Below are positions 5,161-10,583 of a DNA stretch of 16,677 nt, piece by piece; positions within the stretch are counted from its first letter, which is position 1, and the number at the start of each line of letters is the position of its first letter. The stretch is from Thermoplasmata archaeon. Its GTDB lineage: Archaea > Thermoplasmatota > Thermoplasmata > Thermoplasmatales > Thermoplasmataceae. The stretch is from NCBI GenBank assembly GCA_021792045.1, contig JAJYVJ010000026.1, forward strand, positions 1 to 16,677. Reading direction: 5' to 3'. The notes beneath the pieces are model-generated. The model worked only from the letters and a program-made list of their open reading frames with translations, did not search any database and was not told where the DNA came from. A program made the translations under genes and the position numbers.

Positions 5161-5784
5161 ATGTTTTTAATACTGGAGGATTACTTCAAGGATCACCCGA
5201 CAAAGGCGAGGATTACCAGAGAGCTATTTGATCTTGGTATTTCTGTTGTTGGGCAGAAACTCTATCTCTCTGATATGGAACTGTCAATAGGTGAAATCTC
5301 AAAGAAGTTAAATGTCAACAGAAGAACCCTTTACGAAACCATAGCAATGATATCTGAAAATCCAGAGATAAGAAGGCTTATGGGCAACCTAAGGCCAATT
5401 CCAGATCTTGGTTCTGTTTACAAGCTCTTTGGCGGAGGAACAGTGACAATAGAGATACAGAAAGGTAAATTTTCTTATGTGTTCAAACAGACGCTAAAGA
5501 TCATGGAAAGGTATTCGTTTTTTATGCGAGAGATTAGAGCAGATAACTGTTTAGAATCACCCTCGATCAGGATACTTTTTCACAAGGATGCACCCAAGAG
5601 GGTTTACAGCGAAATTTCAGAAATTTCAGGAGTAAAGAGCATATGGATAGAAACGCAGAAAGATCTCAGCGATATTGTTTGTCACGGCTGCAAGGTGAAA
5701 CTTTGCCCTGAGAAATCTTCCACTTCGCTCAATTCGGACGAGATTCCCGTTGCGACACATGGTCAAGAATCCGATGTATTGTGA
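5161..5784 (+). CDS. HTH protein related to predicted ACT-domain amino-acid metabolism regulators
   Basis: 207 residues. An N-terminal helical region is followed by a helix-turn-helix at about 41-70 (LSIGEISKKLNVNRRTLYETI). The segment NPEIRRLMGNLRPIPDLGSV and an ACT-like alpha/beta part (about 90-175) follow. This order resembles the archaeal family annotated as predicted ACT-domain regulators of amino-acid metabolism (COG2061-like); the assignment rests on resemblance and the ligand is unknown. An extra tail contains CHGCKVKLCPEKS (CxxC-x4-C), possibly a metal or redox site, then about 25 polar residues. The gene has its own TATA box. Before the insertion sequence arrived it lay about 100 bp upstream of the COG1395-type regulator in the same orientation. 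Confidence 0.6.
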   Translation: MFLILEDYFKDHPTKARITRELFDLGISVVGQKLYLSDMELSIGEISKKLNVNRRTLYETIAMISENPEIRRLMGNLRPIPDLGSVYKLFGGGTVTIEIQKGKFSYVFKQTLKIMERYSFFMREIRADNCLESPSIRILFHKDAPKRVYSEISEISGVKSIWIETQKDLSDIVCHGCKVKLCPEKSSTSLNSDEIPVATHGQESDVL

Positions 5785-5840: not shown

Positions 5841-5848
5841 AATGTTTC
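5841..5848. repeat. Left target-site duplication of the insertion sequence
   Basis: AATGTTTC directly abuts the left terminal inverted repeat and recurs exactly at 7976-7983 beside the right one. The 8-bp length fits the IS256/Mutator-like superfamily among others. Confidence 0.88.
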
Positions 5849-5869
5849 CTATGCCAATCATAAACCGCT
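5849..5869. repeat. Left terminal inverted repeat
   Basis: It begins CTATGCCAATCAT and ends CCGCT. Compared with the reverse complement of 7955-7975, 15 of 21 positions match. The stop codon of ORF2 lies just 3 nt inside it, so the coding region fills the element almost to the edge. Confidence 0.82.
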
Positions 5870-5872
5870 GTT

Positions 5873-7621
5873 TCATCCTTTGTTACAATTCGAGAAATAC
5901 TCTGACATCAACTCTCTGCTGTATGGACTATCCGGAATGTGATCCTCAAGGATCATCTTCGTCCCCTTATCGACAAGAGCGATGATCCTCTTCCTTGTCA
6001 TGCCCTCCTTTTTGAACGGCATTCTATACCTGGAGAATACCTCGCTCATGTCTTCTTTTCCGAAGACTACATCCCGATATCTCTGATTGTCAACATTCTG
6101 AAAGAGCAGGAGTGACTCTCCGCTGTGTGCGATGACGCTACCAGTTGAAATGTTGCCGCACCTCTTCCTAACGTTCCTTCTCACCTTGCGGAATAATATC
6201 TCCATTCCATTGTTTGTCCTCTTCATCGTCCCTTCACGATTCTGTGAAAAGAGCATAGATTCTCTCTTGCTGAAGCGATCTATAGCCAGTTTTGCTGATC
6301 GGAGTATATGCTTCTCTATGTTCGCATGAAGATACACTTCGAGTTCTCCGAAGACCATACGGCACTGCTCGTGTACGATCGGATCATCCCTTGAAGTATC
6401 GTATATGTCGTTGGAGAGATCGCCACTCTCAGGTATTCTGAAAGCTCCACGTATCTTCTGGAATATCGCTGAATTAATATCTTTCAACTGATGAGCGATC
6501 CTCATTATTCCAGGATTATCCGTTACCTTTAAGATCTCATCCTTTATCCGTTCAATGATATTTATCGAGCTTTCATGCCTCATCCTTGGGGCGAGTTCAG
6601 AGAGATTCCTGAGAACCTCCTCACAGGAAGTGTAAAAATTCAAGTGTCTAAGGGAGAAAGGGAAGCCGTAGTCGGAACTCCCGTTACGGAATAATTCCTC
6701 CAAGATCCTCTTTATTGCCATCTCCTCCATAGTATTCCGATGAGTGCAGAATCCCTCATCGATCTCGTTCAGGGTCGATTCGCAATATTCGGGCATATCG
6801 TGCATTATCGTCCTTAGCCTGGATTTTATTCCCATATGATTGATCATTATTCCGAGATCTGTGTGGAGATCGAGCATCAGTTCCTTTCCGAGATCTCGGA
6901 GGAAATGCATGAGGCATATCCTCACTGGCACTTCGGGAAAGATCTTCTCCGATGCGGATATTATTCCTGAACGCATGTCGCATGTAATCCCTGAGGGGGT
7001 GCCGAAACGGTCTTTCACCGATTTCATGACACCCTCGATCGATGCCTGAGATTCTGAGGGGCATTTCCTTGCATAGAGGACGAATCCTGACAAAGCGTCC
7101 TTGACCGCAACGATCATTGAGAATTCGGAATCTACTGTGCCGTCAATCTGCAGTATGTAAGACGGCATTGCCGCTGCAAGTTTCTTTGCACTCTCCTCAT
7201 GTATCTTACGGAATATATCGAGAGCCTGGTTGCTCATCTTTCCGGCATGGCTCTCAGACATGCCCAGGCTGCGTGAGATCTCGGAACAGCTCTTTCCCGT
7301 TATGAAACGTTCAATGGCACTCTCCACCATCACGTCATTGGAATACCGGCATCTCTTCGGTACTATTTCGAAGAGTCTTTCCGATCTGTACTCTCTCTTC
7401 TCCCTCGGACACATCATGATTCTATGTACAGCCGTGAATTCGCCACTCAGTGTCCTGACAAGCTTTCTGTCACGCCTGTATTCCCTCAATCTTGTACCAC
7501 AGTTTGGGCAATTCTTCGGAAGATAAGAGAAGAGTATCTCTTTCATCCGAATCACTTCAGCTTGAGGAATACCTTCTTCATCTTCAAATCGTTCTCTATG
7601 ATGATCTTCGTTATGGGCCAT
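5873..7621 (-). CDS. IS transposase (ORF2), DDE type with MULE/IS256-like C-x2-H motif
   Basis: 582 residues. A zinc-ribbon-like start (CPNC at 38-41, C71, C91) is followed by a helix-turn-helix (about 111-133, SCSEISRSLGMSESHAGKMS). The RNase H-like core has LQIDGTVD with D160 as the probable first catalytic Asp, and GITCDMRSG with D215 as the probable second. RICLMHFLRDLGKEL has C236-x2-H239, a signature of Mutator/IS256-related transposases. The third acidic residue could not be fixed by eye. The ATG at 7621 lies inside ORF1, giving a 70-nt overlap in the -1 frame. The protein could start there by coupled reinitiation or be made as an ORF1-ORF2 frameshift fusion; codons 1-23 are dictated by the overlap. 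No stop or frameshift damages it. Confidence 0.85.
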   Translation of the reverse strand: MAHNEDHHRERFEDEEGIPQAEVIRMKEILFSYLPKNCPNCGTRLREYRRDRKLVRTLSGEFTAVHRIMMCPREKREYRSERLFEIVPKRCRYSNDVMVESAIERFITGKSCSEISRSLGMSESHAGKMSNQALDIFRKIHEESAKKLAAAMPSYILQIDGTVDSEFSMIVAVKDALSGFVLYARKCPSESQASIEGVMKSVKDRFGTPSGITCDMRSGIISASEKIFPEVPVRICLMHFLRDLGKELMLDLHTDLGIMINHMGIKSRLRTIMHDMPEYCESTLNEIDEGFCTHRNTMEEMAIKRILEELFRNGSSDYGFPFSLRHLNFYTSCEEVLRNLSELAPRMRHESSINIIERIKDEILKVTDNPGIMRIAHQLKDINSAIFQKIRGAFRIPESGDLSNDIYDTSRDDPIVHEQCRMVFGELEVYLHANIEKHILRSAKLAIDRFSKRESMLFSQNREGTMKRTNNGMEILFRKVRRNVRKRCGNISTGSVIAHSGESLLLFQNVDNQRYRDVVFGKEDMSEVFSRYRMPFKKEGMTRKRIIALVDKGTKMILEDHIPDSPYSRELMSEYFSNCNKG

Positions 7622-7866
7622 GCATCATAATCGATCCCTATCTTCTTCAGTATCTGATCGATCTCTTCCTGGCTTATCCCTTTGTCTAACAGGCGGGAGA
7701 CATACTTGACGATCTGTTCCGGATCGATCTCAGTCTTCGAATTGAGAGATTTCCCAAGGTATCCGACATAGTTCTGCACAACCTTCCCATTGACCCTCTT
7801 CTCGTCAACAAGGTTGTAGTAAACCTTTCCACTCTTCGATTTTCTCTTCACAGGTATCACTGTCAT
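7552..7866 (-). CDS. IS ORF1, small basic protein upstream of the transposase
   Basis: 104 residues. The N-terminus (VKRKSKSGKVYYNLVDEKR, then GKVVQNYVGYLGKS) resembles the N-terminal arm of IS1634-like transposases, which read a strong K/R-rich beta hairpin before the DDE domain. A predicted helical segment follows (DPEQIVKYVSRLLDKGISQEEIDQILKKIG). It overlaps ORF2 by 70 nt. It may be the DNA-binding part of a split transposase or a regulator of transposition; nothing in the sequence decides this. The ATG at 7866 is 27 nt from a TTTATAGT box, and a 28-bp palindrome covers the space between. Confidence 0.75.
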   Translation of the reverse strand: MTVIPVKRKSKSGKVYYNLVDEKRVNGKVVQNYVGYLGKSLNSKTEIDPEQIVKYVSRLLDKGISQEEIDQILKKIGIDYDAWPITKIIIENDLKMKKVFLKLK

Positions 7867-7892
7867 AGTATATAGTAATTACTACATACTAT
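7865..7892. promoter_or_regulatory. 28-bp imperfect palindrome over the IS ORF1 promoter and start
   Basis: The arms match at 13 of 14 positions, with AGTAATTACT at the centre (7874-7883). It covers the interval between box A and the start codon of ORF1 and includes bases of the ATG. Its position suits a repressor site for self-limiting transposase expression; a hairpin role is less likely if the mRNA is leaderless. Confidence 0.6.
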
Positions 7893-7896
7893 AAAG
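7889..7896 (-). promoter_or_regulatory. Box A of IS ORF1
   Basis: On the minus strand this reads CTTTATAG, centred about 27 nt before the ATG at 7866. It partly overlaps the outer edge of the 28-bp palindrome. Confidence 0.5.
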
Positions 7897-7954
7897 ATCT
7901 TTCGGTCACTCAGTCAAACAAAGAGAAAATTGATGGTCAAATTGCTGATTTTAT

Positions 7955-7975
7955 AGCGGAAGATTATCGACATAG
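7955..7975. repeat. Right terminal inverted repeat
   Basis: It starts AGCGG and ends ATCGACATAG on the plus strand, the inverse of the left end at 15 of 21 positions. The direct repeat AATGTTTC follows immediately. Confidence 0.82.
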
Positions 7976-7983
7976 AATGTTTC
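7976..7983. repeat. Right target-site duplication of the insertion sequence
   Basis: AATGTTTC, identical to 5841-5848. It forms the left half of the 16-bp palindrome at 7976-7991. Confidence 0.88.
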
Positions 7984-7991
7984 GAAACATT
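7976..7991. promoter_or_regulatory. Perfect 16-bp palindrome abutting the regulator's TATA box, candidate operator
   Basis: AATGTTTCGAAACATT is fully self-complementary. Its last base overlaps the TATA box TAATATACT (7991-7999), 29-44 nt before the ATG at 8020. It covers the position of the BRE, so a bound dimer would compete with TFB/TBP. The downstream gene encodes an XRE-type regulator, so autoregulation is a natural guess but unproven. Removing the insertion sequence restores the same palindrome at the junction. Confidence 0.6.
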
Positions 7992-7999
7992 AATATACT
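7991..7999 (+). promoter_or_regulatory. Box A of the COG1395-type regulator gene
   Basis: TAATATACT is centred about 25 nt before the ATG at 8020, consistent with a leaderless transcript. The insertion sequence ends 15 nt upstream and leaves it intact. Confidence 0.55.
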
Positions 8000-10208: not shown

Positions 10209-10583
10209 TTATTCTCCTATGAATTTCCTGTATTCTTCGGCAGACATTGAATCTGCCGTTTTTCCTGTTTTCTTTAGTTTTACCAGCCAGCTTCCATAGG
10301 GATCTTTGTTTACCTTCTCAGGAGAATCTGAAAGCACTTTGTTGACGTCAACAACATCACCATCAACAGGAGAAAAAATGTCCTCTGCAGACTTAACAGA
10401 TTCTATGGAGAGCAGTGGCTCTCCAGCCTTCTTCTTAACGCCTGATTGTGGAAAATCTATGAAGACAACATCCGTAAGCTGAGACTGCGCAAAATCAGAT
10501 ATGCCTACTGTCACAATATCGCCATCCACTCTAAACCATTCGTGTGTCTTGAGATACCTCAGTTCTTCAGGTATTTTGGTCAT
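10209..10583 (-). CDS. gcvH: Glycine cleavage system H protein
   Basis: 124 residues, a full-length lipoyl carrier protein. It shuttles the aminomethyl group between the P, T and L proteins of the glycine cleavage system. Diagnostic features: LKTHEWFRVDGDIVTVGISD (11-30), the lipoylation site ESVKSAEDIFSP with K64, and the C-terminal segment DPYGSWLVKL. No gcvP, gcvT or lipoate gene is in the window, so its partners must be elsewhere. An alternative role as a lipoyl relay is known for H proteins but not shown here. It is the first gene of a two-gene unit with rlmE; box A lies 23-24 nt upstream. Confidence 0.95.
   Translation of the reverse strand: MTKIPEELRYLKTHEWFRVDGDIVTVGISDFAQSQLTDVVFIDFPQSGVKKKAGEPLLSIESVKSAEDIFSPVDGDVVDVNKVLSDSPEKVNKDPYGSWLVKLKKTGKTADSMSAEEYRKFIGE

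Follow-up and report, generated by a model that had tools for sequence, protein, structure and literature searches.

A Thermoplasmata insertion sequence family with a probable preference for the upstream edge of predicted archaeal core promoters

Within the Mutator superfamily (p-MULT), insertion at promoters has been described for bacterial elements: according to Guerillot et al. 2014 (PMC3942029), the integration sites of TnGBS/ISLre2 (p-MULT 3) and ISKra4-group elements keep a constant spacing to a downstream sigma-A promoter, which for TnGBS places them 15-17 bases upstream of the -35 region, and both orientations occur among promoter-targeting bacterial elements whose inverted repeats are nearly complementary. 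The same account describes IS256 (p-MULT 1) insertion as likely random, and reports that ISH6 (p-MULT 2), mainly archaeal and with an AT-rich target, duplicates the motif AANATNTT itself and has been suggested to favour promoters, maybe via its AT-rich duplication. As marks of the superfamily it gives a C/D(2)H motif 11-19 aa after D2 and a helical insert of 99-138 aa, and it cites yeast Ty3, the integration of which is tied to promoter transcription factors (PMC3942029).

Here, we analyzed an insertion sequence in a window of 16,677 nucleotides (the whole stretch of DNA under study, from contig JAJYVJ010000026.1 of a Thermoplasmata archaeon). The L, G and C numbers below are our handles for loci, genomes and contigs. 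The features of the window are as follows.

5161-5784, plus strand: upstream neighbour, weak match to a TrpY-family regulator (75.7 bits, cut-off 180)
5841-5848: target duplication AATGTTTC, left copy
5849-7975: insertion sequence of 2,127 bp with two genes, Mutator/IS256-superfamily-like, delimited by its inverted ends, the exact 8-bp duplication and its absence from L031/L062 and L063
5849-5873, plus strand: left terminal inverted repeat, from the family consensus CTATGGCGGTnATAnACCGTTAGAT
5873-7546, minus strand: transposase, 557 aa form (open frame reaching 7621), with D135, D190, E449 and C211-x2-H214
7552-7866, minus strand: ORF1, 104 aa, conserved accessory protein also found in some sister elements (about 29-30% identity)
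7951-7975, minus strand: right terminal inverted repeat, from the terminal-repeat matrix
7976-7983: target duplication AATGTTTC, right copy, equal to the left half of the palindrome
7976-7991: 16-bp palindrome AATGTTTCGAAACATT, with 1 and 2 mismatches in two congeners
7984-7989, plus strand: BRE-like element GAAACA, in agreement with the family target motif
7990-7997, plus strand: TATA-box-like element TTAATATA, centred about 26 nt before the start codon
8020-8967, plus strand: target gene, HTH transcriptional regulator (NF003162/PRK04140; 273.9 bits, cut-off 263)

The right end of the element lies 44 bp from the regulator start codon, duplication included, and the duplication itself lies 36 nt from it. 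On general knowledge, we take GAAACA at 7984-7989 to be the BRE. The form and order of the two motifs, an A-rich BRE followed by TATA, are typical of archaeal promoters.

The element begins with CTATGCC and ends with CATAG, and its two ends match in inverted orientation at 16 of 25 terminal positions, an imperfect repeat. Translation of the transposase from the start at 7546 yields 557 aa, the length of the nearest homologue. A culturable relative, Oxyplasma meridianum, has a transposase (P0027) with 51% identity. Across 77 aligned sequences, D135 and E449 are invariant and D190 is conserved in at least 90%. In the structure model, D135 lies in beta1, D190 just after beta4 and E449 at the start of a helix, and the fold, compared mainly over residues 100-508, matches those of ISCth4, Hermes and retroviral integrases. 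As modelled, therefore, the protein has the DDE triad in an RNase H fold expected of the Mutator superfamily. The C211-x2-H214 motif is present 21 aa after D190, and the D2-E spacing is 259 residues. The element appears to be a member of the Mutator/IS256 superfamily. Family profiles scored below their cut-offs, both for ISKra4 (NF033572, 13.2 bits against 205) and for IS256 (NF033543, 35.9 bits against 150); the latter score and the D2-E spacing distinguish the element from the IS256 family (p-MULT 1) and ISCth4. A TFIIB-type zinc ribbon in the N-terminal part of the transposase likewise stayed below cut-off (12.9 against 22 bits). ORF1 gave no Pfam or NCBIfam match above cut-off. It was considered as a factor restricted to the clade of the window element and rejected, because relatives about 29-30% identical adjoin the sister transposases L174, L175 and L176.

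The initial annotation, made from the letters of the window, had read the target duplication as exactly one half of a perfect palindrome, and this is borne out: AATGTTTC occupies 5841-5848 and 7976-7983, and GAAACATT at 7984-7991 is the second half completing the palindrome. The intact palindrome is kept on the right beside the TATA box, the half-site AATGTTTC is left at 5841-5848, and joining the flanks gives the predicted intergenic distance of 100 bp (64 + 36). The expectation that an empty site would contain the palindrome held in part: the element-free relatives carry a near-palindrome at this place, imperfect in both. One of them, L031 (MAG YS3.bin24), has flanks 93.7% and 93.6% identical to those of the window, and L062 (G001), also without the element, is identical to L031 at the site; their empty site reads AGTGTTTCGAAAGATT (longer stretch CAAAGTGTTTCGAAAGATTAATATAC), with 2 palindrome mismatches. 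The other, L063 (G002, of the same genus as the window), reads AAGGTTTCGAAACATT (longer stretch CAAAAGGTTTCGAAACATTAATATAC), with 1 mismatch. The palindrome core TTTCGAAA is identical across the window, L031/L062 and L063. Thus, the near-palindrome is older than the insertion. At every differing palindrome position, the window carries the letter found in the majority of these three, which suggests that the perfect palindrome may be ancestral. Among 31 upstream regions of the regulator, the near-palindrome is confined to the genus of the window (L031, L062, L063). By base composition, 0.31 perfect 16-bp palindromes would be expected in the window, which has 2; 400 kb of G002 hold 3 against 7.9 expected. 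The second one in the window, TTGTTGACGTCAACAA at 10339-10354, lies inside a minus-strand ORF (10209-10583).

To survey the sites occupied by the family, element ends were gathered from those genomes of the order that have a transposase match (38 of 117) and from further searches, drawing on a part of the transposase protein matches. The terminal-repeat matrix returned 124 hits, which were reduced to 67 non-redundant ends once near-identical flanks (≤6 mismatches over 30 bp) had been removed; some of the remnants kept may share descent. Each 8-bp duplication was then compared with the next 8 bases outward.

The exact reverse complement followed the duplication at a single end of the 67, that of the window; among the other 66, one had 3 mismatches and 65 had 4 to 8. 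The preference for palindromic targets suggested by the initial annotation, together with its alternative that the insertion was neutral through a rebuilt operator palindrome, is in our view extremely unlikely as an explanation of the site. The palindrome at the window site is indeed exact, and the near-palindrome in both congeners makes an autoregulatory operator possible; against this stand the survey count and the fact that the duplication spans one half of the palindrome without its centre. The palindrome is a feature of the window site, not what the element seeks. Because the window has regained the palindrome that overlaps the BRE, an operator at this place, if there is one, would stay working, and neutrality via the restored operator is a possible candidate effect. 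Insertion upstream of the BRE is a simpler reason than operator repair: because the element lands there, the core promoter and the gene are intact.

What many of the ends share lies beyond the duplication on one side, where NAAANNTTTAAATA, corresponding to a BRE+TATA core promoter, stands at a fixed offset. With the duplication numbered as positions 1-8, A occupies position 11 at 51 of 67 ends. AAA starts at position 10 in 24 of 67 (10, 14 and 10 ends at offsets 9, 11 and 12, 7 at offset 18, and 0-5 elsewhere), and TTTA, TTAA, TATA or TTAT starts at position 15 in 15/67 and at position 16 in 16/67, compared to 8-10 at positions 17-19 and 0-6 elsewhere. After 8 tandem-junction ends that run straight into another element had been set aside, a two-component fixed-offset model fitted to the remaining 59 ends gave the consensus nnAAAnaTTTAaAtan from position 8. 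The mixture log-likelihood reached 161-163 when the offset was 6-8 and stayed at 36-50 for offsets of 21 or more. In 300 control sets of 59 random intergenic sites, all from one genome (G002) whereas the ends come from many, the mean was 32.5 (sd 5.2) and the maximum 49, against 153.6 for the ends. Leave-one-out scores exceeded 2 at 31 of 59 ends and 6 at 19 of 59; under the full matrix, 3.2% and 0.6% of random intergenic sites did so. The right end of the window element tops the leave-one-out ranking (12.9). Where the best score at any offset exceeded 6 (26 ends), it fell at offset 6-9 in 23. By the model, 36 of the 59 ends are motif-positive and 23 lack the motif; many of the latter are the far ends of elements, single-end remnants apart.

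The motif was also assessed on elements delimited without reference to it. Duplication pairs were sought on loci up to L131, on 12 named loci and on sister loci, and 8 elements were found to be bounded by their own duplication: the window element, L154 (a copy also listed as L002), L033 (likewise L004), L035, L093, L094, L187 and, with one mismatch in its duplication, L044. Seven of the 8 have a leave-one-out score above 5 on one side, and L044 fails on both sides. In a held-out genome from another family of the class (G393), six ends scored 9.1, 8.3, 6.5, 2.1, 0.9 and -4.5, 3 of the 6 thus exceeding 6. Distant sister elements were examined at four sites delimited by duplications (L174, L175, L176 and L237); the motif is missing at the offset in all of them, with best scores of 1.0, -6.3, -15.5 and -7.7, respectively, and transposase identity is about 25% for the first three. 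Judging from these four sites, the promoter-edge property may be limited to the clade of the window element. A fifth sister pair, L233, was dropped as probably not an element boundary (12/20 end matches, scores -15.8 and -18.3). According to the nearest coding match, the motif is faced by the left end of the element in 19 cases and by the right end in 16, with 1 unassigned. The distance is therefore fixed without a fixed orientation, and it is the target that is asymmetric, not the element end.

The position of downstream genes follows the same pattern. Counting ORFs of at least 70 codons that start within 250 nt of the duplication, 26 of the 36 motif-positive ends have an ORF, and in 17 of these 26 the start codon lies 32-40 nt past the duplication (outside this range in the other 9). 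Motif-negative ends have an ORF in 10 of 23 cases, and 0 of 10 start at 32-40 nt; among random G002 intergenic sites with an ORF, 5.9% do. This distance, with the TATA centre about 26 nt upstream of the start codon, would fit leaderless transcripts from the predicted promoters. De novo learning of a native promoter motif yielded a spurious motif from 91 upstream regions. From 224 G002 regions it gave a TnnatAAnnttAAATA motif that was weak and showed hardly any positional peak; the likely cause is that genes often start at a codon other than the first possible one. Native genes were therefore scanned with the element-derived matrix. Built without same-genus ends and applied to 224 native G002 genes, it had its sense-strand peak between -40 and -31, with 42 sense versus 11 antisense hits; a minor group of 13 sense-strand hits fell between -20 and -16.

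The promoter sequence is already present in the element-free loci L031, L062, L063 and L077. Moreover, the PRK04140 regulator has an element end at this offset both in the window and in a genome of another genus, G015 (L080), where the site reads ACATAACG-CAAATGTTTAAATAC and the distance to the start codon is 35 nt. The opposite end of the G015 element was looked for and not found, and G031 (L077), of the same genus as G015, carries the regulator without the element. With one G015 end seen, two insertions at this regulator are the simplest reading. Related downstream products (27-32% identity) recur in three other pairs of loci, L040/L154, L048/L051 and L054/L099.

Several sites carry more than one element. 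G075:C86 has a row of two whole elements followed by the beginning of a third, all in one orientation, with a single CTAAAATG between neighbours and promoter-like sequence at the outer edge of the stack; G011 (L035) has the first of these elements and the beginning of the second. The G075:C86 elements are 67-77% identical in alignable pieces, and the transposases of the two whole ones are 52% and 46% identical to that of the window. Since the stacked elements differ, one 8-bp site has apparently been struck repeatedly. In G117:C82, GTCCAATG is common to two elements that point in opposite directions and share 72% identity over 233 bp, and GATGAACC marks a further shared-site junction in G067:C24.

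Random insertion, followed by selection that purges copies breaking genes or core promoters, would leave upstream survivors with no targeting at all, and in compact genomes intergenic survivors would be expected in general. However, survival alone would not set the position within 1-2 bases, as in the 23 of 26 high-scoring ends above, nor does it agree with different elements on one exact 8-bp site or with the four distant sister sites that lack the motif at the offset. We thus consider such an origin of the pattern very unlikely.

Individual loci were noted as well. Single copies of one 8-bp duplication stand between different neighbouring elements at L092/L035 and L132, at L172 and at L142. 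L187:1998-2311 (G030:C24) is a 314-bp element with the exact duplication TATGAATA and a short transposase remnant, located at the promoter offset; it is apparently an internally deleted (MITE-like) derivative. L001/L038 (G001:C111:11412-12062) is a copy that matches the first 651 bp of the window element at 96% identity and no further, and its left end faces promoter-like sequence. L148:1715-2353 (G030:C70), a stretch of 639 bp, is bounded on either side by an element end that faces promoter-like sequence; its duplications do not match, and it perhaps consists of two remnants. No relative was found in 76 pattern stretches of viral contigs, and among plasmids six bacterial records gave partial matches covering up to 48% of the query at <28% identity.

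Judged from sequence comparison, the family combines a fixed offset and a duplication with the occupation of one exact site by different elements and of the same gene in two genera. We consider it highly probable that, in this transposon family of the Thermoplasmatota, the transposase directs integration to a constant position immediately before predicted archaeal core promoters. The duplication would arise from staggered cuts, 8 bp apart, at the upstream border of the core promoter. Its promoter-side edge precedes the A-tract of the BRE by one base and typically lies some 35 nt before the start codon, and either element end can face the promoter. The BRE, TATA box, start site and gene would stay together, separated only from sequence further upstream, and the effect on the host should be mild. 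The duplication would end where the DNA predicted to be bound by TFB-TBP begins, so that recognition might involve either the bound initiation factors (the TBP/TFB/RNA polymerase edge) or the BRE/TATA DNA itself.

The second of these routes, a variant of promoter-edge integration that differs in mechanism, would have the transposase read a DNA word alone, an A-tract past the duplication followed by TA-rich sequence that promoters happen to bear, with no protein partner. The strength of the motif at base level and the A at position 11 of some ends away from promoters agree with it, and we regard it as quite possible, if somewhat short of an even chance. The start codon distance is constant too, however, and the motif lies on one side only, whereas two-fold symmetry would be expected of an integration complex; a promoter-bound partner fits these two features better than a DNA word alone. 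A specific form of such a partnership, in which the transposase would dock on the archaeal initiation complex (TBP-TFB, perhaps RNA polymerase) and integrate at its upstream edge, in parallel to Ty3, is put forward only tentatively. Such reading of initiation complexes could be ancient in the superfamily and have outlasted the switch from sigma to TBP/TFB, because related Mutator-type transposases target sigma-A promoters in bacteria.

Inserting at a constant spacing from a predicted promoter, and doing so above the random-site control, the family appears to be promoter-targeting in its behaviour. The promoter-edge strategy would thus work with a different promoter recognition system in an element of acid-loving archaea. 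Natural insertion sites might provide a core-promoter map in uncultured Thermoplasmatota, and the family offers a case for testing whether basal transcription factors tether a transposase in archaea. Ty3, a retrotransposon with an integrase working with TFIIIB/TFIIIC, is an analogy only, and no homology is claimed. ISH6, as described in PMC3942029, is likewise an archaeal Mutator-type insertion sequence with an AT-rich target, but there the motif is the duplication, whereas in the present family the duplicated bases vary and the motif is adjacent to them; ISH6 is set apart by this description, and by eye its consensus AANATNTT fits 0 of the 8 verified duplications. Among the open-licence matches listed (titles and abstract openings), there was no report of archaeal insertion sequences at BRE/TATA core promoters. 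The precedent is that of the bacterial sigma-A promoters described in PMC3942029. TnGBS/ISLre2 and ISKra4-group elements share with the window element a DDE transposase of the Mutator superfamily and insertion at a fixed distance upstream of promoters; like the bacterial promoter-targeters that use both orientations (PMC3942029), the present family is orientation-free, yet the inverted repeats of the window element are less alike. In TnGBS/ISLre2 it is the right end that faces a sigma-A promoter, whereas here the host is archaeal and 19 left and 16 right ends face a motif corresponding to an archaeal BRE/TATA promoter.
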